Shown: positions 29,110 to 51,535 of the stretch, piece by piece | Position numbering within the stretch: position 1 is the stretch's first letter | Layout of the letters: each line of letters begins with the position of its first letter | Source of the DNA: Ramlibacter agri | Lineage (GTDB): Bacteria > Pseudomonadota > Gammaproteobacteria > Burkholderiales > Burkholderiaceae_C | Length of the DNA: 64,000 nt | Assembly: GCF_012927085.1 (NCBI RefSeq) | Contig: NZ_JABBFX010000003.1 | Location: forward strand, 992,001 to 1,056,000 | Direction: 5' to 3' | Program-made: the position numbers and the translations under genes | The notes under the pieces: model-generated | What the model was told of the DNA's origin: nothing | The model's database searches: none | The model's input: only the letters and a program-made list of their open reading frames with translations

Positions 29110-29146
29110 TTGACGAATGATGCTTAACAGGCAAGGGAATCACTTC

Positions 29147-36600: not shown

Positions 36601-39600
36601 CCGTGCGCATCAGCGGCAGCAGCATCATCGACGGCGACACCACCACGGGCGAGACCGAGGTGGACATCGTCGCCGACAAGCTGCTGCTGACGGCCACGTC
36701 CTCCGCCGGCACCGGCGTCAATCCGCTGGAGACCACGGTCAACACGCTGAGCGTCAGCGCCGGCAGCACCGTGGGCATCGTCGAGAGCGACGGCCTGGTG
36801 CTGGACACCGTCACCGCCAGCGTCAACCGCGTGGCCGTCGACGGCACGACGGCGGCCACGACGCCGGTGACGCAAGGCAACGTGGGCGGCTCGACGGTCA
36901 CCCTCCGCACGCTGGCCGGCTCGCTGTCGGCGACGGCCGCGGGCGGCAAGGTCACGGCGACCGGCAACCTGCTGCTGAAGGCGGGCGGCGCCACCAGCGA
37001 CATGACGTTGGGCGCGGCCGTCAGCACCACCACCGGCAACATCAGCCTGGACGCCGGCCGCGACATGAGCCTGGCGGCGGCGCTGTCCACGGCCGGCGCC
37101 GGCAAGACCATCGACCTGCTGGCCGGCGGCGCGCTGACCCAGCAGCAGGGCAGCACGCTGACCACCACCAACGGCCACGCTTCGCTGGTGGCCGGCGGCG
37201 TGCTCACCATCGAAACGATCTCGGTCGGCATCGGCCGCGTGAACATCAGCGGCAGCAGCATCGTCGACGGCGACGCGGCGGGCGACACCGAGGTCGACAT
37301 CCTGGCGGCCGGCGTGCGCGCCACGGCCACCGCGGGCGGCATCGGCAGTTCCGGCAATGCGCTGGAGACCACGATCAGCACGCTGAGCGCGGTGGCAACC
37401 GGCGATGTGTTCATCACCGAAACCGATGCGCTGGATCTCGCCGTGGTCTCGGCCACGGTCAACCGCGTGGGCAACAACGGCGCCGATGCGGTGGTGACTT
37501 CGGGCGGGCAGAACAACGTCAGTGGCGCCACCGTGGTCGTGCGGACCCTGGGCGGCAACCTGACGAACCAGGCCACCGGCGTGGTGAGCGCGACCGGCAA
37601 CCTGCTGTTGTCGGCGGGTGGCGCGGCGTCGGACCTGAACCTCGCGGCGGCGGTCAGCAGCAGCGGCGGCGACGTGAGCCTGGCGGCGGGCGAGGACATC
37701 ATCCTCGGCGCCAACGTCACGAGCACGGCGCCCGGCAAGTCCATCGACCTGGTGGCGGGACGCAACTTCACGCAAGCGCAGGGCACCACGCTGCAGACGA
37801 ACGCCGGCAACATCGGCCTGCAGGCGGGCGGCGTCGCGACGCTGGAAACCTTCAACGCGTTCTCGGGCTACGTGCGCATCCAGGCCGGCAGTGTGGTGGA
37901 CGGCGACACGACGGCGAACGAGAGCGAAGTGGACGTGTCCGCCTTCGGCCTGCAGCTGGTGACGACGGGCGCAGTCGGCGCGTCCGCCAATGCGCTGGAG
38001 ACCACCGTGCAGACGCTGGCGGCGTCCGCCGGCGGCAACCTGTTCCTCGCCAACACCGGGGCGCTGAACATTTCGGCGCTGGCCATCGACACGCAGCGCG
38101 TGGGGACGGACGGCGTTTCGACCAGCACGACCAACGCCGCCACCAGCGGGCTGTCGACGGCGACGGCCGTGGTGCAGTCCGGCGGCATCCTGGAAAGCAT
38201 CGCGTCCGCGGCGATCAACGCCAGCGGCAACCTGCTGCTGAAGACGCTGGACGGGGCCGACATGAACCTGCAGGGCAGCGTCAGCGCCTCCGGCGACCTG
38301 ACGCTGGACTCCGGCCGTGACCTGCTGCTGGGGGGCGCCGTCGCCACGACGGGCGCCGGCCGCACCCTGGTTCTGCTGGCGAATCGCGCCTTCACCCAGG
38401 CCCAGGGCAGCAGCGCCAGCAGCAGCGACGGCACGATCGTCGTCTCGGCGGTCCTCGAGGCCACGGTGGAAAGCCTGGCCGCCGGCACGGGCACGGTTCG
38501 CATCAACGCCAGCCGCGTCATCGACGGCGATGCCGACGGCGACAACGAGGTCGACGTCACGGCGGGCGCGCTGGGCATCGTGGCCAGCAACGGCGCCATC
38601 GGCACTGCCGCCAACGCGCTGGAGACTGCCGTGGGCAGCATCGCCCTGGGCGCGGCACAGGGTGACGTCTTCGTCACCGAAAGCGACGCACTGACGGTGG
38701 ACACCGTGGGCGGCACGGCACAGCGGGTGGGCAGCGACGGCGCGAGCCAGGCGCTGGCCCTCGCCAGCCTGGCCGGTTTGAACGGGAACCAGGTGGTGGT
38801 GCGGACCCTGGCGGGCTCGCTCGCCACCACCGCCGGCGGCGGCCTCGTCATGGCGGGCAGCAACCTCCTGCTGTCCGCAGGCGGCGCCGGCTCCGACCTG
38901 TCGCTCGGTGCCGCAGTTGCGAGCACGGGCGGCGACATTAGCCTGCTGGCCGGCCGGGACCTGCTGTTGAACGCCAGCGTGTCCACCACGGGCTCGGGCA
39001 ACACCATCGACCTGAGCGCGCAGCGCAACCTGGCGCAAGCGCAAGGGACCGCCGTCACCAGCACCGACGGCAATATCGCAGTCGAGGCCGTGACCGGCGA
39101 CGCCACCCTGGAGACGGTGTCCGCCGGGATGGGCAGCGTGTGGGTGAGCGCCGTCGACATCGTCGACGGCGACACGGCAGGCGACAGCGAGGCGGACCTC
39201 AGCGGCTCGGTCATCCTGCTGACGGCCACGGGCGCCATCGGCGCCGCGGGCAATGCGCTGGAGACCAGCGCTGCTTCGCTGAACGCGCACGCGGGCGGCG
39301 ACGTCTTCCTGGCCGAAGCCGATGCCTTGGTCGTCGACAACGCCATCGCGTCCGATGTCCACCGGGTGCAGGCGACGGGCGCGTCCGCTTCCAACATGCA
39401 TTTCGGCAGCGACGGCCTGTCCGGCGCGAATGTCGTCTTGACCACCGGCAATGGCGCGCTGACGACGTTCGGAGCCGTGACGGCCAACGGCAAGCTGCTG
39501 CTGCAAGCCGGCGGCCCGGCCGGCGACCTGACGATCCGAAGCGGCGCCACCGCCGGCGGCGCGCTGAGCCTGGAGGCCGGGCGCGACCTGGTGCTCGCCT

Positions 39601-42236
39601 CCAGCGTCGGCAGCACGGGCAGCACGGTCGATCTCCAGGCCCAGGGGGCCCTGACGGCCAACGAAGGCACGGCCATCACGGCCAACGCCAACGTGCTGCT
39701 CCAGGCGGGTGGCGACGTCACCATCGACACGGTGAACGCGGGCATCGGCAAGGTGCGCGTCGTCGCAGCCAACCTGGTCGACGGCGACAGCGGCGCCGGC
39801 GAGACCGAAGTGGACATCATCGCGGACCAGTTGCTGGTCAGCGCCACCGGCGCCGTGGGCTCCGCGTCCAATCCGCTGGAGACCCGTGTGGCAACGCTGG
39901 CGGCGCAGGCCGGCGGCCTGGTGAACATCGCCGAAGCGGATTCGCTGCTGGTGGGCCCGGCCAGCTTCGGCGGCGTGAGCCGCGTCAACGCCGACGGCAG
40001 CCTCACGGTGTGGGGCCCGGCTTCGCAAGGCAACGTCATCGCCGGCGGCGCGCTCACGCTCACCGTGGCTGGCACCCTGGACCTCGCGGCCAACGCCAGC
40101 CTGCAAGCCGCCGGCAACCTCGTCGCCACGGCCGACGGCAACGTCACCATGGCTGCCGGTTCGTCCATGCAGGCCACCGGCCCGTCCACCATCGACCTCA
40201 CGTCGAACACCGGCACGGTGATGATGGACCCGAACACGAGCTCGCTGGCCACCGGCTCGGGCGACATCCACGTCACCGCCGAAGGCGACATCCAGCCCGG
40301 CGCCGTCATCACGCAGGGCAAGGCCTACCTGAATTCGCTCAATGGCCGCGTGCTGATCCGCGGCGACCTGCAGCGCAATGGCGAGGACGTCGACCTGTTC
40401 GGCAACGACCTGGTCATCGAGGTACCGGTCTCCAGCCCGGGCGGCACGCTGCGCATCGGCCCGCTGAACCCCGGCACGGACATCGTCATCGGCGACACCG
40501 TGCCCACCGGCGCGGCGCTGCAGGTGGACACCGGCGAGCTGGCGCTGCTGCAGGACGGCTTCGCGCAGATCGTCATCGGCAGCAGCCTGGACCACACCGC
40601 GATCCTGCTGGATGGCGCGACCTCGCCGCTGGTGTTCCATGACCCGCTGGTGCTGACGGCCACCGGCGCCGGCGGCACGGTGAAGCTGCAAGGCAGCGTG
40701 ACGGGCGACTCGCTCACCATCGCCGACGCCGGCGACCACACCACGCTGGCGACGGCCACCGTTGCCATGCAGGGCAGCGTGCTGGTGCAGGACCAGCTGA
40801 CCGTCGACGGCCCGAACACCATCACGGGCAGCGGCTCGCTGCACTTCACGCAGGCCGTCACCGGCGCGGGCGGCGCGGCCGACACGCTGGCGCTCGATGC
40901 TGGCGGCGGCAGCGTGGCGATGGACCAGCCTGTCACCAACCTCGACGGCCTGAGCATCAGCAACGCCAGCGACGTCCACTTCGGCGCCGCCGTCACGCTG
41001 AGCGGCGACCTGGTGATCGACGCCACCGGCACCGTCACCTTCGACGGCCCGCTGACGCTGACCAACGGCGCGCGCCTCATCGTGCGCGGCGGCGGCCAGG
41101 TGGTGTTCAACGACAGCGCCGACCTCGGCTCGGGCGACGCCCTGCTGCAGGTGTCCGGCATCCACGCCACCGGCGGCACCGGCAGCCTGCGCGGCACCGG
41201 CGCGCTGCAGGTGCAGGGCGCCACGGCCACGCAGGCGATCCACGTCGGCGCCGGCACGGCCGCGGCGGGCGAGCTGGTGGTGGGCAACGACGTGCTGGGC
41301 GCAGTCGGCGCGGGCTTCACGGCCCTCCACATCGGCACCGGCACGGCCGCCCTCACGCTGGGCGATGCCGACCTGTCCGCCACCGGCGCGCCGGTGGAAC
41401 TGCAAGGCAGCAGCATCGCGATGGTCGCCACCGGCGCCGGCGTGCGCCTGGGCACCAGCTTGGCGCTGCATGCCACGGGCGACATCACGGCGGCCGGCCA
41501 GCTGCAGGCCACCACCGCGGCCAACGTCACGCTGACCAGCGACACGGGCGCCATCACCATGGCGGCGGGCAGCAAGCTGGCCAGCCAGGGCGGGCACATC
41601 GCGCTGACCGGCGCCGGCAACCTGGCCGTCGCTGGCCTCGATGCGCGTTCGTCCACCGGCACCGGCACCGTGTCCCTGAGCAGCGCCACCGGCGCCATCA
41701 CCGACGCCGATGCCGATTCGGCCATCAACGTCTACGCCCAGGGCGTCGACTTCCATGGCCGCGGCACCCAGGCGGGCAGCGCCCAGGTGCTCGAGGTCGC
41801 GGCGGCAGTTGTGCGCGTCGACCCGGCCGGCGGCATCGTCCTGCGCGACTCCGGCACCGACGGCCGCGTCTACTACAACGTGCTGCACGGGTCCGACCTG
41901 GAGCAGGCGCTGGTGGCCGTGGGCGCCTCGCAGCGGGTCACCACGGACCCGGATGCCTTCGTGGCCGGCGGCGGCCTGCAACAGCTGGCGGCGGCCAGCA
42001 CCGGAGTGCGGACCAACTCCCTGGCAACGGCGCTCAGCCTGTCGCTGGGCAGCTACAGCGCTCCGTCCGGGAATACCCAGGTGCAGAGCTACCTGGCGAG
42101 CACGGGCACGACCGCCGACGCCGGCCTCACGCTCTCCCAGCGGCTGCAGGCGGAAAGCGAGCTGTCGTTTGCCAGCGGCCAGCCGGCCGGCGACGCCACC
42201 GGGGTGGACTACTGGACCGAGTCGCTCAGCGTGTGA
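30651..42236 (+). CDS. Giant LEPR-XLL beta-repeat exported protein
   Basis: This 3,861-residue protein begins at an ATG preceded by AAAGAGAA. Residues about 16-31 read FRVEPLEARVLLSADP, which matches the LEPR-XLL N-terminal motif found in very large bacterial surface proteins; the basic stretch before it (KRALRDLF) is also typical. There is no conventional cleavable signal peptide. The rest is beta-strand repeat, including about ten copies of a 210-residue unit (33.7-40.1 kb). Segments such as LADGFSKIVIGQQDG and LDGATSPLVFHDPLVL are near-identical to segments of the first giant protein, so the two are paralogues. The C-terminal region (VLRDSGTDGRVYYNVL ... DYWTESLSV) is also shared. It is probably a secreted or surface-anchored structural protein. 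The only gene between this one and the secretion operon is none: a terminator follows directly. Confidence 0.9.
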   Translation: MKPVQPPFKRALRDLFRVEPLEARVLLSADPVLGAVAVALKPADQDPAAAVAQAYAAPADVNVATTPGATVLVADNAQQPADATSQWLLVDTAQLADANGRVVVGGPDSNAVIHVGTSQVGDLVLMNPQAGGEVYLDGALQLTGSLMILGSGHTTTVSADISDANDVTIADSVKINGNRTIEAGTDGTGFVQLGNNTASTINGDGVGAADSLVVHAADNVRFTGPVGGTDPLTSLTIDGVNVGGTPNLPNNVNFDRDVTVNGDLVINATGTVTFTGMVTLNNGGSLRITGASSVVFQSGLVLVKDTTTGRVGNIFIEGNEIDFVGGSESVKGDGMLTLRPSNVGYGIDVGTIPNSASQPANTTLNLDSADLKALADGFSKIVIGQQDGLHANVAAGNVRIGAESQNVLLRDPVEVYGGTIAVTDMQPSDYQLSVDGSITLDAYGDITIANRMEANLGGSTLTDVTLYSATGKVAQVNDLGDNVGAEPLRAGALTVHAAGGISLPYTEITSVSATNTASGDLSITETATGADVIVTLLSQQAASGGIALNTTAGSITVNGGITNAGSGLTQLGAAGSGKNITVNQDIHSASGTIQLTAAGAITTNDDAGSVTHGVIATDGAGNVQLVASSGAIQQGADILSAGGLVSLDAFTTVTMSDGVKAQSLGLGAGSVSLKARGGNVTVSIVNADGTISIAAAAAIIDGLTGSNPNLDGETAAVLLAAASGIGTGSTPLQTRVNALAATNTTTGGVFIREATALRISGGAGSYAVDAGGSDGSVSITTIDGAITIEKGVRSTGTVGNMLVQTSEAAEATVADLKIRADVTTAHGSMSLLSADSINVDDLVAATAPTISVTGSGQTLDVSADAAITTEGNARFATAGGALRLYADAGDVSLGVADAGAGNVSISAMHGGRILDAQADDGNATPSANVIAGSVRLQGDAGIGLAGALFDTQVATLAAKVTTGSVFLAERDALSVGDVAALSVNRITAQATLGAPVSDTSLSGIGGNAGVVLQAGGNLAIDRAVGAGGNLLLSSGGTLAVNAIASTSAGNLSALANGTLTVAATGVLDATAGVDIESTTGAVNMVDGAVARSNAATIRVKAATGVTVGLLDARSSSDRAGGTTNDFATWGAVSVVAGGNIADNTGETATDIYGYTVRLQAGGGIGASGEQLETEAGQMSAKAGAAGLFLADATGLEVLAQGDIGVARVGLDGVAAIGPVDAAQSGLASGGVLAVVAQGGPLVVDTGTAVTAAGNVLLTALTSDVALSSDVSSGGNISIESARDLLVAGNIAATAAGKTVDLSATRTLSQAQGTTISSNNGNVSLDAGGAVTIETLNAGTGGVFVSGLTIADGDAAGDTEVDIIGGAAQLKGSNGIGAAGAALETQVTTLSAIGNGVFLTESDGVTVDRVQVDVNRVDANGGVAAAGHAAQEDVSGTTVVLATLAGDLTLNAGTAATDAVYGGPGNVRLEAVAGHVVANGNITSSNGSLSVLGASGVAFQGTAGIVAYSGTVDIAASNGAITMADGTGVLTDGGAIRLQASGDITVANLNATATGSVSVNAGGNIADNTGNTNIDILAGVLRLQAGGGIGAADNALETWVGQLSASAGAAGMFLLESDAVLVTQTAAISVNRVGLDGTTLTAQADGVQAGLASGGAVSLQTTNGTLTTDAQGAVSAGGNLYLGAGGSSSDLVTGAAVSSSGGSLSLAAGRDALLGGSVSATAAGSSVEVKAARDVLQAQGTAITTSNGGIVVTGGSLATNGIAGTVTLETLNAGTAGVQVGAQSIVDGDAAGDTEVDIVAGSAALFAGAGIGAAGAALETAVGTLKVGAVGDVFVTESDAVVIDAVSVSYQRVDASGATTNVTTGSLAGLSGANLVLRTLAGSITSAAGVAVAATGNLLLQAGGSTSDIALAGSASAGGAMSLIAGRDATVKSTVTTTGGSIDIQSGGRIDAQQGSAIASGNGNVQLLALSGSVTLELVNAGTGTVRISGSSIIDGDTTTGETEVDIVADKLLLTATSSAGTGVNPLETTVNTLSVSAGSTVGIVESDGLVLDTVTASVNRVAVDGTTAATTPVTQGNVGGSTVTLRTLAGSLSATAAGGKVTATGNLLLKAGGATSDMTLGAAVSTTTGNISLDAGRDMSLAAALSTAGAGKTIDLLAGGALTQQQGSTLTTTNGHASLVAGGVLTIETISVGIGRVNISGSSIVDGDAAGDTEVDILAAGVRATATAGGIGSSGNALETTISTLSAVATGDVFITETDALDLAVVSATVNRVGNNGADAVVTSGGQNNVSGATVVVRTLGGNLTNQATGVVSATGNLLLSAGGAASDLNLAAAVSSSGGDVSLAAGEDIILGANVTSTAPGKSIDLVAGRNFTQAQGTTLQTNAGNIGLQAGGVATLETFNAFSGYVRIQAGSVVDGDTTANESEVDVSAFGLQLVTTGAVGASANALETTVQTLAASAGGNLFLANTGALNISALAIDTQRVGTDGVSTSTTNAATSGLSTATAVVQSGGILESIASAAINASGNLLLKTLDGADMNLQGSVSASGDLTLDSGRDLLLGGAVATTGAGRTLVLLANRAFTQAQGSSASSSDGTIVVSAVLEATVESLAAGTGTVRINASRVIDGDADGDNEVDVTAGALGIVASNGAIGTAANALETAVGSIALGAAQGDVFVTESDALTVDTVGGTAQRVGSDGASQALALASLAGLNGNQVVVRTLAGSLATTAGGGLVMAGSNLLLSAGGAGSDLSLGAAVASTGGDISLLAGRDLLLNASVSTTGSGNTIDLSAQRNLAQAQGTAVTSTDGNIAVEAVTGDATLETVSAGMGSVWVSAVDIVDGDTAGDSEADLSGSVILLTATGAIGAAGNALETSAASLNAHAGGDVFLAEADALVVDNAIASDVHRVQATGASASNMHFGSDGLSGANVVLTTGNGALTTFGAVTANGKLLLQAGGPAGDLTIRSGATAGGALSLEAGRDLVLASSVGSTGSTVDLQAQGALTANEGTAITANANVLLQAGGDVTIDTVNAGIGKVRVVAANLVDGDSGAGETEVDIIADQLLVSATGAVGSASNPLETRVATLAAQAGGLVNIAEADSLLVGPASFGGVSRVNADGSLTVWGPASQGNVIAGGALTLTVAGTLDLAANASLQAAGNLVATADGNVTMAAGSSMQATGPSTIDLTSNTGTVMMDPNTSSLATGSGDIHVTAEGDIQPGAVITQGKAYLNSLNGRVLIRGDLQRNGEDVDLFGNDLVIEVPVSSPGGTLRIGPLNPGTDIVIGDTVPTGAALQVDTGELALLQDGFAQIVIGSSLDHTAILLDGATSPLVFHDPLVLTATGAGGTVKLQGSVTGDSLTIADAGDHTTLATATVAMQGSVLVQDQLTVDGPNTITGSGSLHFTQAVTGAGGAADTLALDAGGGSVAMDQPVTNLDGLSISNASDVHFGAAVTLSGDLVIDATGTVTFDGPLTLTNGARLIVRGGGQVVFNDSADLGSGDALLQVSGIHATGGTGSLRGTGALQVQGATATQAIHVGAGTAAAGELVVGNDVLGAVGAGFTALHIGTGTAALTLGDADLSATGAPVELQGSSIAMVATGAGVRLGTSLALHATGDITAAGQLQATTAANVTLTSDTGAITMAAGSKLASQGGHIALTGAGNLAVAGLDARSSTGTGTVSLSSATGAITDADADSAINVYAQGVDFHGRGTQAGSAQVLEVAAAVVRVDPAGGIVLRDSGTDGRVYYNVLHGSDLEQALVAVGASQRVTTDPDAFVAGGGLQQLAAASTGVRTNSLATALSLSLGSYSAPSGNTQVQSYLASTGTTADAGLTLSQRLQAESELSFASGQPAGDATGVDYWTESLSV
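33731..40120 (+). repeat. About ten tandem ~630-bp coding repeats
   Basis: The marker GN(L/V)xLxA occurs in frame at about 33731, 34407, 35039, 35678, 36332, 36962, 37595, 38225, 38857 and 39488. Spacing is 630-676 bp and settles to 630-633 bp in the distal copies. Each unit of about 210 residues also carries AGRDLLL, QAQGT, ETxxAG, DGDxxGDxEVDI, NALET, ESDALxxD, NRVxxDG and VxRTLAGSL in fixed order. The regular period indicates tandem amplification followed by divergence. Confidence 0.85.
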
Positions 42237-42347: not shown

Positions 42348-43115
42348 GTGTTCCAGAAAGTCGTCCCGGTCAATAAAGAACGCCACGCCTCGAAGAAGAT
42401 CAAGGAGGTCTCCGGCTTCGGTTTCGCGTCCAATTTCCACATCGCCTACGTGACGATGCAGGAGTTCGCCCGCGCCGCCTCGATCTTCCCGATCGTGTTC
42501 CTGGAAGACAAGGACAAGGACGAATTCCGTCCGGTGGTCCTGCTGGGCCTGAACGCCGGCGAGAACCTGTTCGTGGGCAAGGACGGCAAGTGGCAGGCTT
42601 CGTACGTGCCGGCCATCATCCGCCGCTACCCCTTCGCGCTGACTGCCGCCGGCAACGACGGCCAGTACGTGGTGTGCATCGACGAGGAAAGCCCGCTGGT
42701 CTCCGACACCGAAGGCGCGCCGCTGTTCAACGAAAAGGGCGAGCCCACCCAGGTCATCGAGAACGTCAAGCGCTACCTGGCCGAGCTGCAGCAGATGGAC
42801 GGGTTCACCCGCGAGTTCTGCAAGTTCCTGCAGGCCAACAACATGTTCACCCCGCTGAACATGCGCGTGCGTGAAGCCAGCCGCGTGAAGAACATCTCCG
42901 GCTGCTACGTCATCAACGAAGAGCGCCTGAACAACCTGTCGGACGAGAAGTTCCTCGAGTTCCGCGCCAAGCGCTACCTGCCGGCCGTGTACTCGCACCT
43001 GATCTCGCTGGCCCAGACCGAGCGCCTGGTCAAGCTGCACGAAGACGCGCAGCCGGCCGCTGCCGCCGCGGAAGCCGCCAAGGCTCCCGCCAAGAAATCC
43101 GCGGCCAAGCAGTAA
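42348..43115 (+). CDS. SapC family protein
   Basis: The 255-residue product begins with MFQKVVPVNKERH and contains FAxASIFPIVFLEDKD-type and GLNAGENLF segments characteristic of the SapC family. A GTG start at 42348 with a GCGGAG site upstream fits. The C-terminal 20 residues are Ala/Lys-rich. SapC was named from the Campylobacter fetus surface-layer locus, where it lies with type I secretion genes; its biochemical role is not established. Here it is the first gene of a six-gene operon with TolC- and HlyD-like genes, a similar context. No signal peptide is seen, so it is probably cytoplasmic. It could act as a chaperone or assembly factor for the giant proteins, which is inference. Confidence 0.85.
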   Translation: MFQKVVPVNKERHASKKIKEVSGFGFASNFHIAYVTMQEFARAASIFPIVFLEDKDKDEFRPVVLLGLNAGENLFVGKDGKWQASYVPAIIRRYPFALTAAGNDGQYVVCIDEESPLVSDTEGAPLFNEKGEPTQVIENVKRYLAELQQMDGFTREFCKFLQANNMFTPLNMRVREASRVKNISGCYVINEERLNNLSDEKFLEFRAKRYLPAVYSHLISLAQTERLVKLHEDAQPAAAAAEAAKAPAKKSAAKQ

Positions 43116-43117
43116 GC

Positions 43118-44689
43118 GTGAAGCCCGTCCTGCTCGCGCTGTCTCTGGCGGCGGGGCTGGCGGCGCTCGCGCCCGCGGCGGCGCAAGGGCTGCAGCCGCC
43201 GCGCACCATCGCCGGTCTGGAGACCCAGCCGCCCCCGCTGCTGCACGGTGACGTGCCGATCCTGCCGCGCCAGCTTGCCCAGCTGGTGGCGGCGCGCAAC
43301 CCCGAAATCCGCTACAGCCGCCTCGGCGTGGAGGTGGCTGCGTACCTGAGCTCCGCCGAAGCCTCGCTGTACGAGACCGTCCTCTACGGCTCCGCCGTGG
43401 GCGACGACGTCGACCGCCAGCGCACGATCGAGGAGCGCGTTTCCAGCGCCGCCTCGCTGTCGGTGCTGAACGAGCGCTCGCAAAGCTACGAAGCGGGCCT
43501 GAAGCAGCGCCTGCCCACCGCCGGCGAGATGTCGCTGGCCTACAAGGTGGTCCGGCGCAGCAACAACATCATCGCCAGCTCCACCAACAACCTGCAGGAC
43601 ACCGAGTGGACCAGCGGGCTGGTGGTGACGCTGAAGCAGCCGCTGCTGCGCAACGCCGGCCGCGGCGTGCTGGAAACCGACCGCCGCGTCGCCGAACTGG
43701 AACGCGAAGTGCAGTGGGCGCAGTTCCGCCAGCAGGTGCTGAAGTCCACCGCCGACGCGCTGAACCTCTATTGGCAGCTGCAGCGCGCGCAGGAGGCCCG
43801 CCGCCTGCGCGACGAGTCGATGAACAACGTGCAGAAGATGGCGCAGGACGTCGACGCGCGCATCGAGGCCGGCCGCACGCCGCCGGCCGCGCGGCTGGAA
43901 GTGCAGTCCATCCTGGCCGGCCGCGAGGCGGAGCTGCTGCGCGCCGACCTCGCCGAGCATGAGGCCGAAGCCAAGGTGCTGACCGCGCTGGGCATCCCGT
44001 CCACCGGCCCGGCCCTGCACCTGAAGGCCACCGACACGCCGCTGCCGCCCAATGCGCAGCCCGAGCCGCTGGACGAGGCGCTGCAGCGCGCGCTGGACCA
44101 GTGGCCGCCGTACCGCGTGTCGCAGCTGCGCCTGGAGCAGGGCCGCCTGCGCCTGGCCTTTGCCGACAACCAGCGGCAGCCGCAGCTGGATTTCAGCGCC
44201 ACCTACAACGCCACCGGCCTCGCCTACGACCGCATCGAGGCCAAGAAGCTCGCCACCCGCGACCAGTACCCGGAGTGGACCTTGGGCCTCAACTTCGAAA
44301 TGCCGCTGGGGGGCAACGGCAAGGCCGGCGGCCAGTACCAGGCGCAGGCCGTGCGCGTGCAGCAGAACCTGCTGGAGCTGGAAGCGATCCGCACCTCGCT
44401 GTCGAACGACCTGTCGCAGCGGCGCGAAGACCTGGTGTCGGCGCTGCGCCAGGTGGCGCAGGCGCAGAAGGACGTCGACCTGCGCAAGCAGGTGGAAGAC
44501 AACGAGCGCGACCGCTACCGCCTGGGCGTGGGCCTGCTGCGCAACTGGCTGGACCGCGAGAACGAAACCTACGAGGCGCGCCAGCGCCTGTCCGATGCCG
44601 TGATGCGCGCCCAGTCGGCGCGGGTGGCGTGGCAGTTCGCGCAGGGCAGCCTGCTGGACGAGTACGACATCGCCTTGAGGAGCGAATGA
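43118..44689 (+). CDS. TolC-like outer membrane efflux protein
   Basis: The 523-residue product starts at a GTG 2 bp after the SapC stop. It has a signal peptide of about 23 residues (MKPVLLALSLAAGLAALAPAAAQG) and long amphipathic helices typical of TolC-family trimers, for example the ARLEVQSILAGREAELLRAD and ALRQVAQAQKDVDLRKQVED segments. The length is normal for the family. TolC proteins form the outer-membrane and periplasmic channel of tripartite export machines. Its neighbours are two HlyD-like adaptors, so it probably provides the exit duct for the operon's exporter. Its stop codon overlaps the next start by one base (TGATG). Confidence 0.88.
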   Translation: MKPVLLALSLAAGLAALAPAAAQGLQPPRTIAGLETQPPPLLHGDVPILPRQLAQLVAARNPEIRYSRLGVEVAAYLSSAEASLYETVLYGSAVGDDVDRQRTIEERVSSAASLSVLNERSQSYEAGLKQRLPTAGEMSLAYKVVRRSNNIIASSTNNLQDTEWTSGLVVTLKQPLLRNAGRGVLETDRRVAELEREVQWAQFRQQVLKSTADALNLYWQLQRAQEARRLRDESMNNVQKMAQDVDARIEAGRTPPAARLEVQSILAGREAELLRADLAEHEAEAKVLTALGIPSTGPALHLKATDTPLPPNAQPEPLDEALQRALDQWPPYRVSQLRLEQGRLRLAFADNQRQPQLDFSATYNATGLAYDRIEAKKLATRDQYPEWTLGLNFEMPLGGNGKAGGQYQAQAVRVQQNLLELEAIRTSLSNDLSQRREDLVSALRQVAQAQKDVDLRKQVEDNERDRYRLGVGLLRNWLDRENETYEARQRLSDAVMRAQSARVAWQFAQGSLLDEYDIALRSE

Positions 44690-45525
44690 TGAGGCTGACT
44701 ACCGCCCTGTGCGCGCTGGCATTGCTGGCGCCAGTGGCCGCGAGCGCCGCGGACTACCCCGGCCTGGTGCAGCCGCTGCACGACGTGACCCTCAGCTCCG
44801 GCGTCGGCGGCATCGTCGCCAGCCGCCGCGTGCACCCGGGCAGCAAGGTCGGCGCCGGCCAGGTGCTGATGGTGCTGGACGACCGCCTGCAGTCCGTGGA
44901 GGCGCAGCGCCGCCGCGTGATCCAGGAGGACAACAGCGAGCTGAAGGCCACCGTGGACCGCGTGCGCATCGCCAAGGGCCTGTACGACGACGCGCAGAAG
45001 GTCTACGACAAGACCGGCTCCATCAGCCGCGACGAACTCGCGCGGCTGGAAGCCGACTACCTGTCGGCGCAGGGCCGGCTGGAGCAGCTGCAGGCGCAGA
45101 AGCAGCGCGAGAAGCTGGAGCAGCAGGGCGCCGAGCAGGAAAAGCAGATGCGCCAGCTGGTCGCGCCGGTGTCCGGCGTGGTGACCAAGGTGGACATCGA
45201 GCCCGGCGAGTGGGCCAAGCCCGGCGAGGCGCTGATCCGCCTGGTCGACGCCAGCACGCTCGTCTTCAAGACCAACATCCCGATGGCCGCCGTGGGCGGC
45301 GTCAGGCAGGGCGGCGTGCTGCCGGTGCTGGTGGAAGGCGACGGCGCGCGCGTGGCGCAGGTGCCGGCCCGCATCACCTTCGTCTCGCCGGTGGCCGACG
45401 CGGCCAGCGGCCTGGTGGAGGTGCGTGCCTCCATCGCCAACCCGGGCGGCAAGCTGCGCGCCGGCAGCAAGGCGGTGCTGCGGCTTGGCGCCCCCGTGCC
45501 CACCGCCGCCGAAGGCAAGCTATGA
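44689..45525 (+). CDS. HlyD/RND-type periplasmic adaptor subunit
   Basis: The 278-residue product has a signal peptide (MRLTTALCALALLAPVAASA), a first lipoyl half (GVGGIVASRRVHPGSKVGAGQVLMVLD in shortened form), a coiled coil (about 60-130) rich in Gln/Glu/Arg, the second lipoyl half (APVSGVVTKVDIEPGEW) and a beta-barrel segment. The start at 44689 is spaced better from GAGGAG (44677-44682) than the in-frame ATG at 44686. Adaptors of this kind bridge an inner-membrane transporter to TolC. With no N-terminal membrane anchor it is soluble periplasmic. It overlaps the next gene by 4 bp (ATGA), so the two are translationally coupled. Confidence 0.86.
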   Translation: MRLTTALCALALLAPVAASAADYPGLVQPLHDVTLSSGVGGIVASRRVHPGSKVGAGQVLMVLDDRLQSVEAQRRRVIQEDNSELKATVDRVRIAKGLYDDAQKVYDKTGSISRDELARLEADYLSAQGRLEQLQAQKQREKLEQQGAEQEKQMRQLVAPVSGVVTKVDIEPGEWAKPGEALIRLVDASTLVFKTNIPMAAVGGVRQGGVLPVLVEGDGARVAQVPARITFVSPVADAASGLVEVRASIANPGGKLRAGSKAVLRLGAPVPTAAEGKL

Positions 45526-47393
45526 AGCGCGACGAGCTCGCTCCCGCCCCCCAGCAGCACGACGCCCGCTCGCTGCTGCTGGCGCTGCACGAACTGCGCA
45601 AGGCGCCGGTCGATGCCGGCTACTGGGCGAGCTTCTGCCCGCTGGTGGCTGCCTTGTGCCGCGCCCGCGCTGCCGTCGCCGTGCAGCGCCAAGGCGAGGA
45701 CACGTGGTCCGTGCTGGGGCAGGGCGGCACGCAGACGGCCTGGCTGGCTGCGGCCTGGCCGCAGATGGTGGCCGACGTCGCGCCGCGCGCGGGCAGCAAC
45801 GGTTTCGCCTACACGCCGGCCGTCGATGACGCGGGCGAAGCGCGCCTGTTCGCGGCCGTGCGCATCCTGGGCGCCGGCGAGGCGCTGCTGCTGCTGGACA
45901 TCGCCCAGCAGGAGCGCGGCATGCTCAACGAACTGCTGATGCGCGCGATGCTGGTGGCCGACGTGGCCGCGCGTCCGTCCGTGCAACTGCCCGTGGCCAC
46001 GGCTGGCGCCCTGGCGCCGACGCGCACCGTCGACCGCGGCCTGATCGACCTGCTGGACCTCGTCTCGCAAGTGATGCAGACGCCCAGCTTCGAGCTCGCG
46101 ACGCTGAAACTCGCCAACGGCCTGGCCGCGCATTTCGGCCTGGTGCTGTGCACCCTGGGCTGGGAAAAGGGCAGCGGCATGCACGCGGTGGCGGTGAGCC
46201 ACCTGGAGCGCTTCGAGCGCAAGAGCGAGAACATCCGCCTGATCGAGGCGGCGCTGGACGAGGCGGCCGCCGAGGAAATGGCGCTGAGCCATCCGCCCGC
46301 CGAAGGCCTGCCCGCCGGTGGCCCGGCCCATGCGGCGCTGTGCGACAACCTGGGTTACGCGCAGGTCTGCACCCTGCCGCAGCGCGACCAGCAAGGCAAC
46401 GTGCAATCGGTGCTGCTGCTGGCGTGGCCGCAGGCGCAGCCGCGGCTGCCGGAGTTCGGCGGCCTGCTGCTGGCGCTGGAAATGCTGCAGCCCTGGCTGG
46501 CCGACCTGCACCAGCGCGATCGCTGGTGGGGCCGCCGCCTGGCCGGCTGGGCGCAGGACCATATCGAGCACTACGCCGGCCCGGGCCATCCGTGGATCAA
46601 GGCGGGCGCCGCCGCGGTGACGCTGGTGGCGCTGTACGGCATCTTCGGCACCTGGGACTACCGGGTCGAGGCCACGGCGCAACTCACGACCGATGCCACG
46701 CGCATGGTGAGCGCGCAGTTCGATGGCCGCGTCGAGGACGTCAAGGCCACGGCCGGCGACCTGGTCAAGGAAGGCACCGTGCTGGCCGTGCTGGACACGC
46801 GTGACCTGCGGCAACAGGAAGTGGAAGCGATGGCCGAATGCCAGCGCTACGAGGCCGAGGCTTCGCGCCACCGCGCCGACGACAACCTGGCCGACATGGA
46901 AGTGGCGCTGGCCCGCCTGGCGCAGGCCCAGGCCCGCCTGGCCCGCCTGCGGGACTACATCGCCCATGCCACCAACGTCGCGCCGTTCGACGGCGTGGTG
47001 GTGGAAGGCGAGCGCAAGGACCTGCTGGGCCTGCCGGTGAAGAAGGGCGACCACCTGTTCCGCATCGCGCAGGTGCAGGGCCTGTACGTGATGCTGCACG
47101 TGCCCGAGCGCGACATCCGCGACATCAAGCCGGGCGCGAAGGGCGAACTGTCGCTGCTGGCGCGGCCCGACCAGAAGATTCCCTTCGAGCTGAATGCGCT
47201 GATCCCGGTGGCCCAGGTGAAGGGCCAGGAAGGCAACCAGTTCATGCTGACAGGCAAGCTGCTGGAGCAGCCCGAAGGCTGGTGGCGACCCGGCATGACC
47301 GGCGCCGGCCGCGTCGAAGTAGGCCCGCGCAACGTGGCCTGGGTGGCGACGCACCGGCTGGTCGACGCCATCCGCATGAAGTTCTGGTGGTAG
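45522..47393 (+). CDS. GAF-like / HlyD hybrid membrane adaptor
   Basis: The 623-residue product has two parts. Residues 1 to about 345 lack a signal peptide and look like a cytoplasmic GAF-type domain: helix pairs around LIDLLDLVSQVMQT, then FGLVLCTLGWEKG and a VLLLAWPQ strand. A single membrane span lies at about 362-380 (AAAVTLVALYGIFGTW). After it comes a HlyD-like periplasmic part: VSAQFDGRVEDVKATAGDLV, a short coiled coil and NVAPFDGVVVEGER. This topology could connect a cytoplasmic sensing domain to the periplasmic duct. The GAF assignment is from pattern only. It starts by ATGA overlap with the preceding adaptor, and the next gene starts 1 bp after its stop. Confidence 0.8.
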   Translation: MKRDELAPAPQQHDARSLLLALHELRKAPVDAGYWASFCPLVAALCRARAAVAVQRQGEDTWSVLGQGGTQTAWLAAAWPQMVADVAPRAGSNGFAYTPAVDDAGEARLFAAVRILGAGEALLLLDIAQQERGMLNELLMRAMLVADVAARPSVQLPVATAGALAPTRTVDRGLIDLLDLVSQVMQTPSFELATLKLANGLAAHFGLVLCTLGWEKGSGMHAVAVSHLERFERKSENIRLIEAALDEAAAEEMALSHPPAEGLPAGGPAHAALCDNLGYAQVCTLPQRDQQGNVQSVLLLAWPQAQPRLPEFGGLLLALEMLQPWLADLHQRDRWWGRRLAGWAQDHIEHYAGPGHPWIKAGAAAVTLVALYGIFGTWDYRVEATAQLTTDATRMVSAQFDGRVEDVKATAGDLVKEGTVLAVLDTRDLRQQEVEAMAECQRYEAEASRHRADDNLADMEVALARLAQAQARLARLRDYIAHATNVAPFDGVVVEGERKDLLGLPVKKGDHLFRIAQVQGLYVMLHVPERDIRDIKPGAKGELSLLARPDQKIPFELNALIPVAQVKGQEGNQFMLTGKLLEQPEGWWRPGMTGAGRVEVGPRNVAWVATHRLVDAIRMKFWW

Positions 47394-47394
47394 C

Positions 47395-49548
47395 GTGGCC
47401 GGCTCCGTCTTCAGCGACTCCTGGTTCCGCGTCGCCACCATGCGGGTGGCGCTGCTGCCCACGGTGCGCGTGCAGCGGCAGCGCTTTCGCGGCCGCGACT
47501 GGTACGTGCTGGAGGACAGCTACACCCAGCGCTTCTTCCGCCTGACGCCCGAGGCCTGGGCCTTCGTCAGCCGGCTGACGCCGGAGAAGACCGTCGAGGA
47601 AACCTGGAACGAGTTCCTGGAGACCCACCCCCAGGAAGCGCCGGGCCAGGACGCGGTGATCCAGCTGCTGTCGCAGCTGCACGTGTCCAACCTGCTGTAC
47701 TTCCGCCACCAGCCGGACAACGACGCGATCGTCGAGCGCGTGAAGCGCACGCGCCAGCGCGAATTGGCCGGCAAGGCGATGTCCTTCCTGTTCTTCCGGG
47801 TGCCGCTGCTGGACCCGAACGCCTGGCTGGACCGCATCTCGCCCTTCATCCGCTTCATCACCGGCCCGTGGATGGCCGCGGTGTGGCTGGCGGTCGTCGG
47901 CATGGGCTGCGTGACGGCTTTCGAGCACCGCCAGGCGCTGCTGGATAAATCGCAAGGCCTGCTGGCGCTGGACAACCTGCCCTGGCTGTACGTGTGCCTG
48001 GCGCTGCTGAAGCTGCTGCACGAGATGGGGCACGCCTTCGTCACCAAGCGCTATGGCGGCGAGGTGCGCACCTTCGGCCTGATGTTCCTGCTGTTCACGC
48101 CGCTGCCCTACGTGGACGCGACGGCGAGCTGGGCGTTCCGCAATTCCTGGCACCGCGTCTACGTGGGCGCGGCCGGCATGCTGGTGGAGTTCTTCCTGGC
48201 GGCCATCGGCGCGATGGTGTGGGCCAGCACCGGCGCGGGGCTGGTGAACAGCATCGCCTTCAACGTGATGGTCATCGGCTCGGTTTCGAGCGTGATCTTC
48301 AACGGCAACCCGCTGCTTCGCTTCGACGCGTACTACATGCTCAGTGACGCGATCGAGATCCCGAATCTGTACCAGAAGGCGCAGAAGCAGTGGCTGTACT
48401 TCGGCGACCGCTACGTGCTGGGGACGCCCAACCTCGATTCGCCGGCACATGACGAGCGCGAGTGGCATTGGCTGACGGCCTACGGTGCCTTGAGTTTCTG
48501 CTACCTGATGGTGGTGACGGTCGGCATCTCGCTGTTCCTGCTGGACCAGTGGTTCATCCTGGGCGTGATCGCGCTGACCATCACGCTGGCGACCAAGCTG
48601 GCGATCCCCGCCTGGAAGCTGCTGCAGCACCTGATGGGGCCGGCCGTCTCCCGCAACCGCAGGCGCGCCTGGCAGGGCGTGCTGTCGGTGCTGGTGGTCG
48701 TGGTGGTGCTGGGTGGCTGGATGCCGCTGCCTTACTCGGTGCGGGCGCAGGGCATCCTGCAGGCCGACGAATCGGTGACCGTCTATGCGCCGATCGAAGG
48801 CGCGCTGGTGCACGCCGTGGCGAAGAACGGCCAGCTGGTGCGCGCCGGTGACGTGGTGGCGGAGCTGCGCAACCCGGACCTGGACCAGGACATCGAGGTC
48901 AGCAAGCAGGCGCTGCGCGAAGTGGAGGCGCTGTTCCGCCAGGCCATGTTCAAGGCGCCGGCGCAGCTGCCCACCCTGCAGCAGCAGCAGCAGGCCGCAC
49001 TGCGGCGGCTGGTGGAACTGGAAGCCAAGCGCGCGCAGCTGACGGTGCGCAGCCCCGCCGCCGGCGAGTGGGTGGCGCCGGCGCTGCACGAGAACGAAGG
49101 CACCTGGCTGCAGCGTGGCCAGCCGCTGGGCGAGACGGTGCAGCGGCGCGGCTTCCGCTTCATCGCGGTGGTGCCGCAGGAACAGGCCAACGAGCTGTTC
49201 GCGCAGCATCCGAAGGAAGCGTCGGTGAAGCTCAATGGCCAGGCCGACGCTTCGATAGCCGTGACCTCGCTGCAGATCATTCCCTACCAGCAGCAGAAGC
49301 TGCAGTCGGCCGCGCTGGGCTGGCTGGGCGGCGGCGAGATCGCCGTCAAGACCGACGACCGCAGCGGCAACACCGCCGCCGAATCCTTCTTCGCGCTGTA
49401 CGTGGGCCTGCCCAAGCAGCTGCCGGCGCAGGTCGTGCCGCTGGAAGGCATGTCGGGGCAGGTGCGCATGGAGCTGCCGGGCGAGCCGCTGTTCTGGCAA
49501 GGCCGCCGCGCGCTGATGCAGTTGATGCAGAAGCGCTACGGCCTCTGA
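47395..49548 (+). CDS. PqqD-like / M50 metalloprotease / HlyD fusion
   Basis: The 717-residue product begins at a GTG one base after the preceding stop. Residues about 22-105 resemble a PqqD-like peptide-recognition domain (WYVLEDSYTQRFFRLTPEAW, TVEETWNEF, LLSQLHVSNLL). Membrane segments follow. The zinc-protease motif HEMGH is at residues 209-213, and a second site-2 protease element, GNPLLRFDAYY, is at about 304-314. Another membrane span (about 430-450) leads into a HlyD-like periplasmic tail with lipoyl halves (YAPIEGALVHAVAKNGQLV, VRSPAAGEWVAPALHENEG) and a coiled coil with a Gln run. Intramembrane M50 proteases cleave membrane substrates. Fused to recognition and adaptor domains, it is likely the inner-membrane core of the exporter. 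Whether the protease is active is unknown, but its motif residues are intact. Confidence 0.85.
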   Translation: MAGSVFSDSWFRVATMRVALLPTVRVQRQRFRGRDWYVLEDSYTQRFFRLTPEAWAFVSRLTPEKTVEETWNEFLETHPQEAPGQDAVIQLLSQLHVSNLLYFRHQPDNDAIVERVKRTRQRELAGKAMSFLFFRVPLLDPNAWLDRISPFIRFITGPWMAAVWLAVVGMGCVTAFEHRQALLDKSQGLLALDNLPWLYVCLALLKLLHEMGHAFVTKRYGGEVRTFGLMFLLFTPLPYVDATASWAFRNSWHRVYVGAAGMLVEFFLAAIGAMVWASTGAGLVNSIAFNVMVIGSVSSVIFNGNPLLRFDAYYMLSDAIEIPNLYQKAQKQWLYFGDRYVLGTPNLDSPAHDEREWHWLTAYGALSFCYLMVVTVGISLFLLDQWFILGVIALTITLATKLAIPAWKLLQHLMGPAVSRNRRRAWQGVLSVLVVVVVLGGWMPLPYSVRAQGILQADESVTVYAPIEGALVHAVAKNGQLVRAGDVVAELRNPDLDQDIEVSKQALREVEALFRQAMFKAPAQLPTLQQQQQAALRRLVELEAKRAQLTVRSPAAGEWVAPALHENEGTWLQRGQPLGETVQRRGFRFIAVVPQEQANELFAQHPKEASVKLNGQADASIAVTSLQIIPYQQQKLQSAALGWLGGGEIAVKTDDRSGNTAAESFFALYVGLPKQLPAQVVPLEGMSGQVRMELPGEPLFWQGRRALMQLMQKRYGL

Positions 49549-49552
49549 TTCC

Positions 49553-51535
49553 ATGGAACGCTCTTCGGCCGCTGCGCCCCCGTGGTTCGCCCCGCGCGAC
49601 CCCGCGCGGCCGCGCGGGTCGCTGGGCTGGCGGCTGAATCGGCTGGCGCGCCACCTGGCGCGGCGCGACCGCGTGGCGATGGAACGCGAAGTGCGCGCGG
49701 CGCAGGAAGCCTTCCCCGCACTTGCCGAACTGGAAGAGGGCGCTTTCCGCGCGCATGTGGCGCAGGTGCGGCGCGCGTATCGCCTGAAGCGTGCGCAGCG
49801 CACGCCGGGCCAACCCGAGCTGACTTCCGCGCTGGCCACGGTGGCCGCCGCCACCAAGCGCACTCTGGGCATGACGCCGTCCTTCCCGCAGTTTTTGGCG
49901 GCGCTGGCGATGGCCGATGGCTACGCGGTGCAGCTGGCGCCCGGCGAGGGCAAGACGCTGGCGGTGGCCATGGCTGCCGTGCTGCAGGCCTGGGACGGCC
50001 GGCCCTGCCACGTGGTGACCGCCAACGAATACCTGGCGGCGCGCGACGTCGAACTGATGCGGCCGCTGTACGACCTGTGCGGCTGCAGCGCTGCCTCCGT
50101 CAAGCAGGAGATGCAGCGCGAGGAATCCGCCGCCGCTTATGGCTGCGACATCGCCTACGCCACCGCGCCACAGCTGCTGGCCGACTTCCTGCGCGACCAG
50201 CTGCTGCTGGGCGGCGCCCAGACGCCGGTGCAGCGCCGCCTGTGGCGCCTGAACGGCGGCGGCGCCGCGATGCAGCCGGTGATGCGCGGCGTCTATGCAG
50301 CAATCATCGACGAAGCCGACGGCGTGCTGATCGACGAGGCCACCACGCCGCTGATCATCGCTTCGCCCCAGAGCAACCCGCTGATGGTGAAGGCGACCCA
50401 CGAGGCGCGCGCGCTCGTGGACGCGATGGAACGCGACGTGCACTACACCGTGCACCAGGGCTCGCACCACGACGTGCGCCTGACGCCCGAGGGCGAGCAG
50501 TGGCTGGCGGGCGTGGCGCACCGGTTGCCGGAGTTCTGGCAGCAGGAAGACCGGCGCGAGAACCTCCTGAGCATGGCGCTGCTGGCGCGTGACGTGTTCG
50601 AGCGCGACCGGCACTACGTGGTGCAGGAAGGCCGCGTGGTGATCGTCGACGAAAACACCGGGCGCCTGATGCCGGACCGCTCATGGAGCCATGGCATCCA
50701 CCAGGCGATCGAGGCGCGCGAATCGCTGGAGCTGACCGACCCGTCGCAGACGGCAGCGCGCATGACCTTCCAGGATTTCTTCCGGCGCTATCACGTGCTT
50801 TCCGGTGCGAGCGGGACCTTGCAAGGCATTGGCCACGAGCTGTGGTCGACCTACGGCCTCCTGACCTTGCGCCTCGCGCCGCGCGTGCCGAGCCGGCTGC
50901 GCACCGGCGAGCGGCACGTCTATCCGTCGCGCGACGACAAGCTGGATGCGATCGTGGCCGAGGCTTCCCGCATCCATCGCGAGGGTTTGCCGGTGCTGGT
51001 GGGCACGCGGCGCATCCTGGACAGCGAAGCGATCGCCGAGCGCCTGCTGGCCGCGGGCGTGGACTGCAAGGTGCTGAACGCGAAGAAGCACGCCGAAGAA
51101 GCGGAGATCGTCGCGCACGCGGGCGGTCCCGACTGCGTGACCGTCGCCACCAACATGGCCGGCCGCGGCACCGACATCCTGCTGGCCGCGGGCGTGGCCG
51201 ATGCCGGTGGCCTGCAGGTCCTGAGCTTCGAGGCCCACGAATCGGCGCGGGTGGACTGGCAGCTGTTCGGCCGCTCGGGCCGCCAGGGCGCGCCGGGGCG
51301 GGCGCAGGCTTTCATCGGTTTGGGCGACGAGCTGTTCGAGCGCCATCTGCCCGCCGTCGTCCTGCCCTTCCTGTGGCTCGCCGCGGGCGTGCCTGCGTCG
51401 CGCACGCGCCTCGCGCCGGCGCTGGTCTGGGCAGCGCAATGGCGCGCCCAGCGCCGCTCCTGGTCCGCGCGCAAGACGCTGGCGGAGCGGGAGGCGCAGG
51501 TGATGCAGCAGTTGTCGTTTTCGCGGATCGGCTGA
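49553..51535 (+). CDS. Short SecA-like preprotein translocase ATPase
   Basis: The 660-residue product keeps the SecA motor core: Walker A APGEGKTL (about 129-136), IIDEADGVLIDEATTPLII (about 250), a preprotein-crosslinking-like segment (RDVHYTV ... RDRHYVVQEGRVVIVDENTG), SGASGTL, TNMAGRGTDILL (about 530) and GRSGRQGAPG (about 573). It ends at the helix equivalent to the start of the SecA scaffold (AQRRSWSARKTLAE) and lacks the remainder of the scaffold, the wing domain and the C-terminal zinc finger. Housekeeping SecA is about 900 residues, so this is an accessory paralogue. It closes the secretion operon, 4 bp after the M50 gene. It probably powers translocation of a dedicated substrate. Its TGA abuts the convergent regulator's stop. 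Confidence 0.9.
   Translation: MERSSAAAPPWFAPRDPARPRGSLGWRLNRLARHLARRDRVAMEREVRAAQEAFPALAELEEGAFRAHVAQVRRAYRLKRAQRTPGQPELTSALATVAAATKRTLGMTPSFPQFLAALAMADGYAVQLAPGEGKTLAVAMAAVLQAWDGRPCHVVTANEYLAARDVELMRPLYDLCGCSAASVKQEMQREESAAAYGCDIAYATAPQLLADFLRDQLLLGGAQTPVQRRLWRLNGGGAAMQPVMRGVYAAIIDEADGVLIDEATTPLIIASPQSNPLMVKATHEARALVDAMERDVHYTVHQGSHHDVRLTPEGEQWLAGVAHRLPEFWQQEDRRENLLSMALLARDVFERDRHYVVQEGRVVIVDENTGRLMPDRSWSHGIHQAIEARESLELTDPSQTAARMTFQDFFRRYHVLSGASGTLQGIGHELWSTYGLLTLRLAPRVPSRLRTGERHVYPSRDDKLDAIVAEASRIHREGLPVLVGTRRILDSEAIAERLLAAGVDCKVLNAKKHAEEAEIVAHAGGPDCVTVATNMAGRGTDILLAAGVADAGGLQVLSFEAHESARVDWQLFGRSGRQGAPGRAQAFIGLGDELFERHLPAVVLPFLWLAAGVPASRTRLAPALVWAAQWRAQRRSWSARKTLAEREAQVMQQLSFSRIG

Follow-up and report, generated by a model that had tools for sequence, protein, structure and literature searches.

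A type I secretion-like operon with a short SecA in Ramlibacter agri and its linkage to LEPR-XLL proteins

The 64000-nucleotide stretch of the Ramlibacter agri genome examined in the present study (contig NZ_JABBFX010000003.1, positions 992001 to 1056000; hereafter the window) contains, on its forward strand at positions 42348–51535, six closely packed genes encoding in order a SapC family protein, a TolC-like outer-membrane factor, an HlyD-type adaptor, a second HlyD adaptor with a GAF-like part, a fusion of an RRE (PqqD-like) domain with an M50 site-2 protease and an HlyD-type adaptor (M50–HlyD), and a short relative of SecA (Table 1). A first-pass annotation, made from the letters of the window, had described these genes as a tight operon preceded by two giant proteins on the same strand, and both descriptions were borne out. 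ORFs (open reading frames), family matches and spacings (+2, −4, −4, +1 and +4 bp, the second becoming −1 if the second ATG of the HlyD gene is used) agree on the six-gene operon; both giants are present upstream, with a gene for an Lcl_C protein in between, and both carry the N-terminal LEPR-XLL motif. The labels 'PqqD-like' and 'GAF-like' failed in the window's own proteins and stood through relatives: PF05402 (PqqD) gave no match in the window's M50–HlyD itself and PF01590 (GAF) none in its second adaptor, whereas the N-termini of M50–HlyD relatives match PF05402 in 49 of 61 cases (best 4.2e-9) and relatives of the second adaptor match PF01590 in 22 of 33 (best 3.1e-14). Family scans show that the HlyD-type adaptor and TolC-type outer-membrane factor of T1SSs (type I secretion systems) are present in the operon, and a regular-expression search found no ABC-ATPase signature anywhere in the 64 kb window.

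Table 1. Features of the locus, with positions in the window
Feature	Position	Strand	Basis or remark
Giant protein 1, C-terminal 9.7k aa	1..29109	+	Whole frame 17,696 aa, begins outside the window
Accessory Lcl_C protein with a lipoprotein-like start (Calx-beta below cut-off)	29117..30583	+	Family scans
Giant protein 2, 3861 aa, N-terminal LEPR-XLL leader; proposed substrate	30651..42236	+	NF012209, hydropathy
Giant protein 2 LEPR-XLL leader motif, residues 16-38	30696..30764 (= C3:1022696-1022764)	+	NF012209 27.1 bits, cut-off 17
SapC family protein	42348..43115	+	PF07277, 248 bits
TolC-like outer-membrane factor, signal-peptide-like start	43118..44689	+	PF02321 OEP; hydropathy peak 2.13
HlyD/RND-type periplasmic adaptor, signal-peptide-like start	44686 (or 44689)..45525	+	HlyD_D23/HlyD_3 families; hydropathy peak 1.91
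GAF-like + HlyD adaptor, possible transmembrane segment at residues 359-377	45522..47393	+	HlyD_D23; hydropathy 1.53
RRE/PqqD-like N-terminus (residues ~1-105) of the M50 protein	47395..47709	+	PF05402 of relatives, predicted fold
RRE-M50 (site-2 protease)-HlyD fusion; candidate receptor, leader peptidase and membrane core	47395..49548	+	PF02163 M50, motifs, adaptor fold
Short SecA (NBD1, PPXD, NBD2; chain stops about where the scaffold helix begins); candidate motor	49553..51535	+	PF07517/PF01043/PF21090

The M50–HlyD protein of the window has the site-2 protease motifs HExxH (residues 209–213) and NxNP....D (residues 303–311), as do its four paralogues in the same genome, and displays several hydropathy peaks. 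Named genomes scanned with an alignment of the M50 protein gave at least 80 loci, to which all later counts on 'the 80 listed loci' refer; the motifs are present in 80/80 of these relatives, although the same motifs seeded that scan. The N-terminus is predicted to adopt a winged-helix RRE fold, the model of this region having a pLDDT of 84.5 and RRE–leader complexes as its top Foldseek matches, and structure model comparison placed an adaptor fold at residues 444–707. The Foldseek and VIA matches of the full-length model span the adaptor part only and, because parts of its membrane region are of low confidence, we make no claim of a pore from this model.

The short SecA of the window matches PF07517, PF01043 and PF21090 only, all or most of SecA_SW being absent, and retains NBD1, PPXD and NBD2 together with the helicase motifs. 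Solved SecA structures match the short SecA at approximately 500 bits, with an alignment reaching residue ~609 of 783 (3jv2). Among its relatives GxGKT is found in 69/73 and QxxGRxxRxG in 72/73. After GRxGRQG the chain continues for 69–96 aa in the short SecAs (68/74; the six others, which have no such pattern, were left out of the length count), compared with 313–335 aa in 16 of 20 canonical SecAs and 85, 204, 221 and 394 aa in the other four. As the chain ends so soon after this motif, the short SecAs have lost what we take to be the helical wing, most of the scaffold with its two-helix finger, and the C-terminal linker; the preprotein domain and the two nucleotide-binding domains are retained. 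When 73 short and 17 canonical sequences were placed in one tree by a quick method, a single branch with an SH-aLRT support of 100 split the two kinds; L034_short (which contains Ns), the partial L143–L145 and the Gram-positive SecA2 proteins were left out of this tree, and L037_short, with a bad frame, was kept. Public records name the short SecA a prepilin peptidase (L258:23059-25083) or a DEAD/DEAH box helicase (L259:22130-24115), annotations by which the family has been hidden.

The 80 listed loci span Pseudomonadota, Verrucomicrobiota, Planctomycetota, Fibrobacterota, Nitrospirota, Thermodesulfobacteriota, Myxococcota, Rokubacteria, Omnitrophota and others. Where 1.5 kb or more of downstream sequence was available (73 loci), a short SecA was found in 70 (the exceptions being L079, L086 and L089), and GAF–HlyD in 69 of the 73 with 1.5 kb upstream, where the exceptions are four Fibrobacter loci. 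Where wide flanks were available (49 loci), HlyD was counted in 42, TolC in 23 and SapC in 12; the TolC count is based on one query sequence, and a further TolC-like cluster is present in five loci. Nine more modules were re-read and all have a short SecA, in two frames in G065 and with a low score in G010. Directly upstream of the GAF–HlyD gene, many loci (L069, L078, L085, L086, L087, L090, L096, L099, L100, L109 and L111; L259, L260 and L261) encode a DUF3467 protein of ~110 aa, with PF11950 in all five proteins scanned, and SapC and DUF3467 never occur together in the 80 listed loci. The claim that the operon has no linked ABC partner held here as it did in the window: across 1.34 Mb around these loci only three ORFs have the ABC signature, none of them a module gene (unlinked partners were not searched for), and a linked partner was rejected. 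The same pattern gives four matches in ten loci of the window's own genome. A dedicated SecY paralogue was also considered and rejected, no SecY-like protein being seen among the 30 largest ORF clusters beside the 80 listed loci in a survey that was not extended genome-wide.

In the R. agri genome (7.2 Mb in 13 contigs, estimated contamination 4.65%) SecA_DEAD is found in seven places, one canonical, one solitary and five inside modules. Each of the five modules has M50–HlyD, GAF–HlyD, HlyD and short SecA, and every one adjoins one or more giant frames, which measure from stop to stop 17.7k and 3.9k aa in the case of the window and 10.8k, 18.6k, 7.3k and 4.8k aa at the other modules. These six frames sum to 189 kb, or 2.6% of the genome, and 6/6 pass the cut-off of the LEPR-XLL profile (NF012209). 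Because five paralogous modules each lie next to a giant, and all six giants are LEPR-XLL proteins, the pairing of operon and giant is more than chance. The leader of giant protein 1 is located at G000:C3:968304, 23.7 kb outside the window, and scores 38.9 bits, and no Sec-type hydrophobic signal was found by hydropathy in giant protein 2. Pfam at a threshold of 0.001 gave no match in giant protein 2 or, for the part of giant protein 1 that lies in the window, in its first 4700 aa. The solitary locus (L004, G000:C1:3690444-3691277) is a sixth extra SecA that lacks its middle part, without a preprotein-binding domain, and has no M50 or adaptor neighbour in our scan; it is possibly a relic.

A survey of genomes for co-occurrence of this gene set with LEPR-XLL proteins, as the first-pass annotation had suggested, gave linkage, and co-occurrence in three phyla. 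In this survey a strong M50 match (>500 bits) stands in for the module, and SecA adjacency was checked in the 80 listed loci, the nine re-read regions, five plasmids and all five R. agri modules. We chose the threshold of 500 bits after viewing the lists, at a gap from 507 to 347 bits in Pseudomonadota and from 558 to 473 bits in Planctomycetota, and the Verrucomicrobiota list was restricted to E values of 1e-120 or better. Among 150 Pseudomonadota genomes, a strong M50 match is present in 27 and LEPR-XLL in 28, and 22 have both (p 1.8e-16); in Verrucomicrobiota (115 genomes) all nine LEPR-XLL genomes fall within the ten with a strong match (p 1.4e-12), and in Planctomycetota (119 genomes) all eight fall within the ten (p 5.7e-11). 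These p values treat related genomes as independent and include centre genomes, without which p is 1.6e-11 (G184) and 6.8e-10 (G194). With the three phyla pooled (384 genomes), a strong M50 match is present in 39 of 45 LEPR-XLL genomes, and in Verrucomicrobiota and Planctomycetota together 17/17 LEPR-XLL genomes have one, while LEPR-XLL is found in 0/214 genomes that do not. The genomes that hold the 80 listed loci number 78 and LEPR-XLL was found in 64 (41/49 plus 23/29), compared with 0/14 controls.

The two are also physically close. LEPR-XLL frames lie within 15 kb of a strong M50 match in 20 of 22 same-contig cases, a count made from 45 LEPR-XLL matches, 16 of them with none of the compared M50 places on the contig, against 42 strong and 13 hand-picked weaker M50 places; with the weaker places included the figure is 25/29, and for the weaker ones alone 5/7. 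A second count put an M50 match within 15 kb of the LEPR-XLL frame in 27/31, from 66 LEPR-XLL matches of which 35 are on other contigs, with 18 of G214 and G215 (M50 on different contigs) left out. The profile NF012209 overlooks LEPR variants such as that at the second locus of G006. From these data we conclude with high confidence that the module is linked to LEPR-XLL proteins. In the Planctomycetota sample no LEPR-XLL frame was found near a module, in assemblies so fragmented that some may be near one. As the LEPR-XLL frames of this phylum have only 361–3786 aa, the motif, and not giant size, is the common mark; giant size was for the same reason rejected as a criterion. Furthermore, 18 of the 119 Planctomycetota genomes have M50–HlyD relatives (best scores 284–473 bits) and no LEPR-XLL match, and these relatives may serve other cargo.

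Modules of this kind were also found on plasmids of cultured isolates. A relative of the M50 protein is present in 13 plasmid records, of which five complete plasmids were read, and profile search found a short SecA in four of the five modules (523–594 bits). Pseudosulfitobacter sp. DSM 107133 has a LEPR-XLL frame of 38.8 kb, HlyD, site-2 protease, SapC, a 'prepilin peptidase' and HlyD; Pontibrevibacter nitratireducens has LEPR-XLL, DUF3467, HlyD, a 'PqqD family peptide modification chaperone', a 'DEAD/DEAH box helicase' and HlyD; Alisedimentitalea scapharcae has a giant calcium-binding protein, HlyD, M50 and SecA; and in Pseudohalocynthiibacter aestuariivivens a long frame, truncated by the beginning of the record, is followed by DUF3467, HlyD, a PqqD family protein and a hypothetical protein. 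The plasmid of Thalassospira marina, in which the profile did not find a short SecA, has LEPR-XLL, DUF3467, HlyD, M50, HlyD and TolC; its frame is named LEPR-XLL by NCBI, and a search of the first 260 aa with our motif pattern gave no LEPR start. The giants of the other four plasmids are cut at the edge of the fetched region.

The leaders that lie beside strong M50 matches, 41 in all and including G202:C10 with its module L086, which has no adjacent SecA, are referred to as class I. They have a basic stretch, followed in most by x-E-x-[LM]-E-x-R-x-L-L-S-[AG]-[DE], and the upstream E is present in 34/35. In hydropathy, 0/40 leader regions reach a KD (Kyte–Doolittle) value of 1.6, compared with the higher peaks of the operon's own TolC and HlyD (Table 1), and the giants therefore seem to be without a Sec signal peptide. 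Six LEPR-XLL genomes have no strong M50 match (G037, G052, G064, G082, G088 and G142) and instead have a distant M50–HlyD at 274–313 bits. No short SecA was found near M50–HlyD in these six genomes, each of which has a single SecA, of full length, apart from two weak matches of 24–26 bits. The sister-class loci (L201–L215, in these six genomes and G006) have one or two adaptor genes, with TolC in the single one scanned (L201), and a LEPR giant adjoins the SecA-less M50 in G082, G064, G037 (twice) and G006. Eight sister-class M50 proteins fall on their own side of the M50 tree with a support of 100/100, and their RRE region is only faintly recognizable.

The leaders of this sister class (class II) read [LS]-A-L-E-P-R-x-[LM]-x-D-[AG]. 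The residue after the LL pair is Asp in 9/9 class II leaders, compared with Ser in 39, Asn in one and Ala in one of the 41 class I leaders, a split with a probability of 3.99e-10 if all leaders were independent, which they are not; of the nine class II leaders, three have the motif and M50 on different contigs, one lies 36 kb off and some form near-identical pairs. G006 holds both classes, each next to the matching leader. These class-matched variants argue for M50–HlyD as the reader of the leader and against a need for SecA in every version of the system.

This type of locus has been described previously. Kamneva, Poudel and Ward reported in 2015 the same locus, with a secondary SecA lacking SecA_SW, and proposed that this SecA is the ATPase in place of an ABC transporter and that the M50 helices form the pore, while calling the broader role of the locus 'completely unknown' (PMC4452313). 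The exporter in which SecA replaces an ABC transporter, which the first-pass annotation offered as its own inference, had thus already been published as a prediction. Their locus and the operon of the window both have a secondary SecA without all or most of SecA_SW, M50–HlyD, GAF–HlyD, HlyD and sometimes OEP, and the operon is a member of this secondary SecA_DEAD/T1SS-like locus, with the GAF domain established through relatives only. Neither 'giant' nor 'LEPR' nor 'PqqD' occurs in the main text of that paper (PMC4452313), and what the present analysis adds is the proposed LEPR-XLL cargo, the RRE domain, a sister class that has no SecA and a leader variant of its own, and the alternation of SapC and DUF3467. 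We found no paper tying LEPR-XLL, the RRE domain or the giants to the secondary-SecA locus in a search whose scope excluded bioRxiv and most subscription papers. Two other papers mention LEPR-XLL once each, for a Vibrio protein of ~8000 aa (PMC10868602) and for a Limnohabitans protein among transcripts (PMC9611531), and passages of PMC8277102 and PMC7352654 have no bearing on the question of exporter and cargo.

The module resembles several known systems in part. With the HlyB–HlyD–TolC T1SS it shares HlyD-type adaptors, a TolC-type outer-membrane factor and large exoproteins as cargo; however, in place of a linked ABC transporter it has a site-2 protease fusion together with a protein of the SecA family, and the shared mark of its proposed cargo is N-terminal. 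A second, specialized SecA is also known from the SecA2/accessory Sec systems of Gram-positive bacteria, but the short SecA is without the wing and the C-terminal linker, its gene lies with those for TolC and adaptors, as suits a diderm envelope, and the second SecY of accessory Sec is not among the clusters described above. The combination of an RRE (PqqD-like) domain with an M50 protease recalls RiPP (ribosomally synthesized and post-translationally modified peptide) and daptide systems, whose daptide M50 profile (NF041824) matches the window's protein at 155 bits, below the cut-off of 300; in contrast with their small peptides, the cargo here has hundreds to many thousands of residues, and the fusion has an HlyD-type adaptor.

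Taken together, we think it probable that the products of the operon form a T1SS-like exporter, tripartite in build, for proteins with an N-terminal LEPR-XLL leader, in this case the two adjacent giants. In the mechanism that we propose, the RRE domain of M50–HlyD likely binds and reads the LEPR-XLL leader, as the predicted fold and the leader classes suggest, and the M50 core may cut it, a step to which we give slightly less than an even chance. The short SecA is a rather likely motor, which would thread the unfolded chain using ATP hydrolysis, and M50–HlyD, GAF–HlyD and HlyD would build a periplasmic duct to TolC. That M50, and not SecYEG, is the pore is a tentative suggestion, towards which we do not lean. 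SapC and the GAF domain may regulate or assist. One point weighs against SecA as the general energy source, which the first-pass annotation had proposed: SecA-less versions exist, namely the sister class, L086, L089 and the plasmid of T. marina, and so its motor role is not universal. Whether all of this amounts to a distinct diderm secretion type, in which proteins as long as ~18,000 residues with an RRE-read leader would pass an HlyD/TolC duct by means of a wingless SecA, and in which two classes, with and without SecA, would have their own leader variants (S-A/G-D/E and D-A/G-A) even in one cell, is a bolder claim that we consider possible and somewhat short of an even bet.

The strongest competing explanation is that the inner membrane is crossed through housekeeping SecYEG, to which the short SecA and RRE–M50 only target LEPR proteins before passing them to the HlyD/TolC duct, and that the SecA-less kin use the housekeeping SecA. 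SecA normally acts with SecYEG, the 30 largest ORF clusters at the listed loci include no dedicated channel, and the SecA-less modules lie in genomes with only a canonical SecA. However, the LEPR leaders are not hydrophobic signal peptides, and the short SecA is without the C-terminal linker, most of the scaffold and also the wing, a part that has been implicated in contact with SecYEG (PMC4452313). On balance we consider this explanation unlikely. It is also conceivable that the module regulates or processes LEPR proteins, as an M50 sensor or site-2 protease with its GAF protein, and that export follows another route. GAF and M50 domains are common in signalling, the adaptor folds could be sensors, and SapC and DUF3467 are without a known role; nevertheless two or three adaptors, TolC and a SecA-family ATPase are transport parts, and the giants have no Sec-like signals, which makes this reading improbable. 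An ordinary T1SS with an ABC transporter encoded elsewhere and an incidental SecA, for which one may cite that T1SS outer-membrane factors are often unlinked and that ABC genes, for which these genomes were searched only at the loci, could be so too, is very improbable given the absence of the ABC signature from the window and from the module genes of the 80 listed loci, the linkage of the short SecA in 70/73 of them and its fully supported separation from canonical SecA.

The LEPR-XLL motif supplies a likely cargo for an exporter that has been predicted since 2015 without a known one. As a signal it also lends itself to reporter fusions, and the two exporter classes with their two leader variants provide a natural comparison. 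For the export of the largest proteins (frames of up to ~18,600 aa here) in lineages without a linked ABC partner, the proposed exporter, if it exists, would represent a route driven by a wing-less relative of SecA, with a RiPP-type leader reader used for giant proteins.

We also compared the C-terminal ends of the giants. Among 40 fetched, 36 ends are closed, and by eye these have only lineage motifs and none in common, so that the idea of a shared C-terminal secretion signal was set aside. A [YD]WxE-type motif is frequent in giants of the TolC-containing subgroup, and other lineages have other endings; YWxE is found at the end of both window giants (42199-42236 and 29072-29109) and in L039, L041 and L044, DWxE in L040, and neither in L035. 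A contig labelled Akkermansia muciniphila has a module whose SecA groups with that of a Comamonadaceae contig (loci L062 and L065), indicating either horizontal transfer or a misbinned contig. Finally, a cluster of lipoprotein-like neighbours recurs at L033, L034, L037 and L041; the Lcl_C protein of the window likewise has a lipoprotein-like start.

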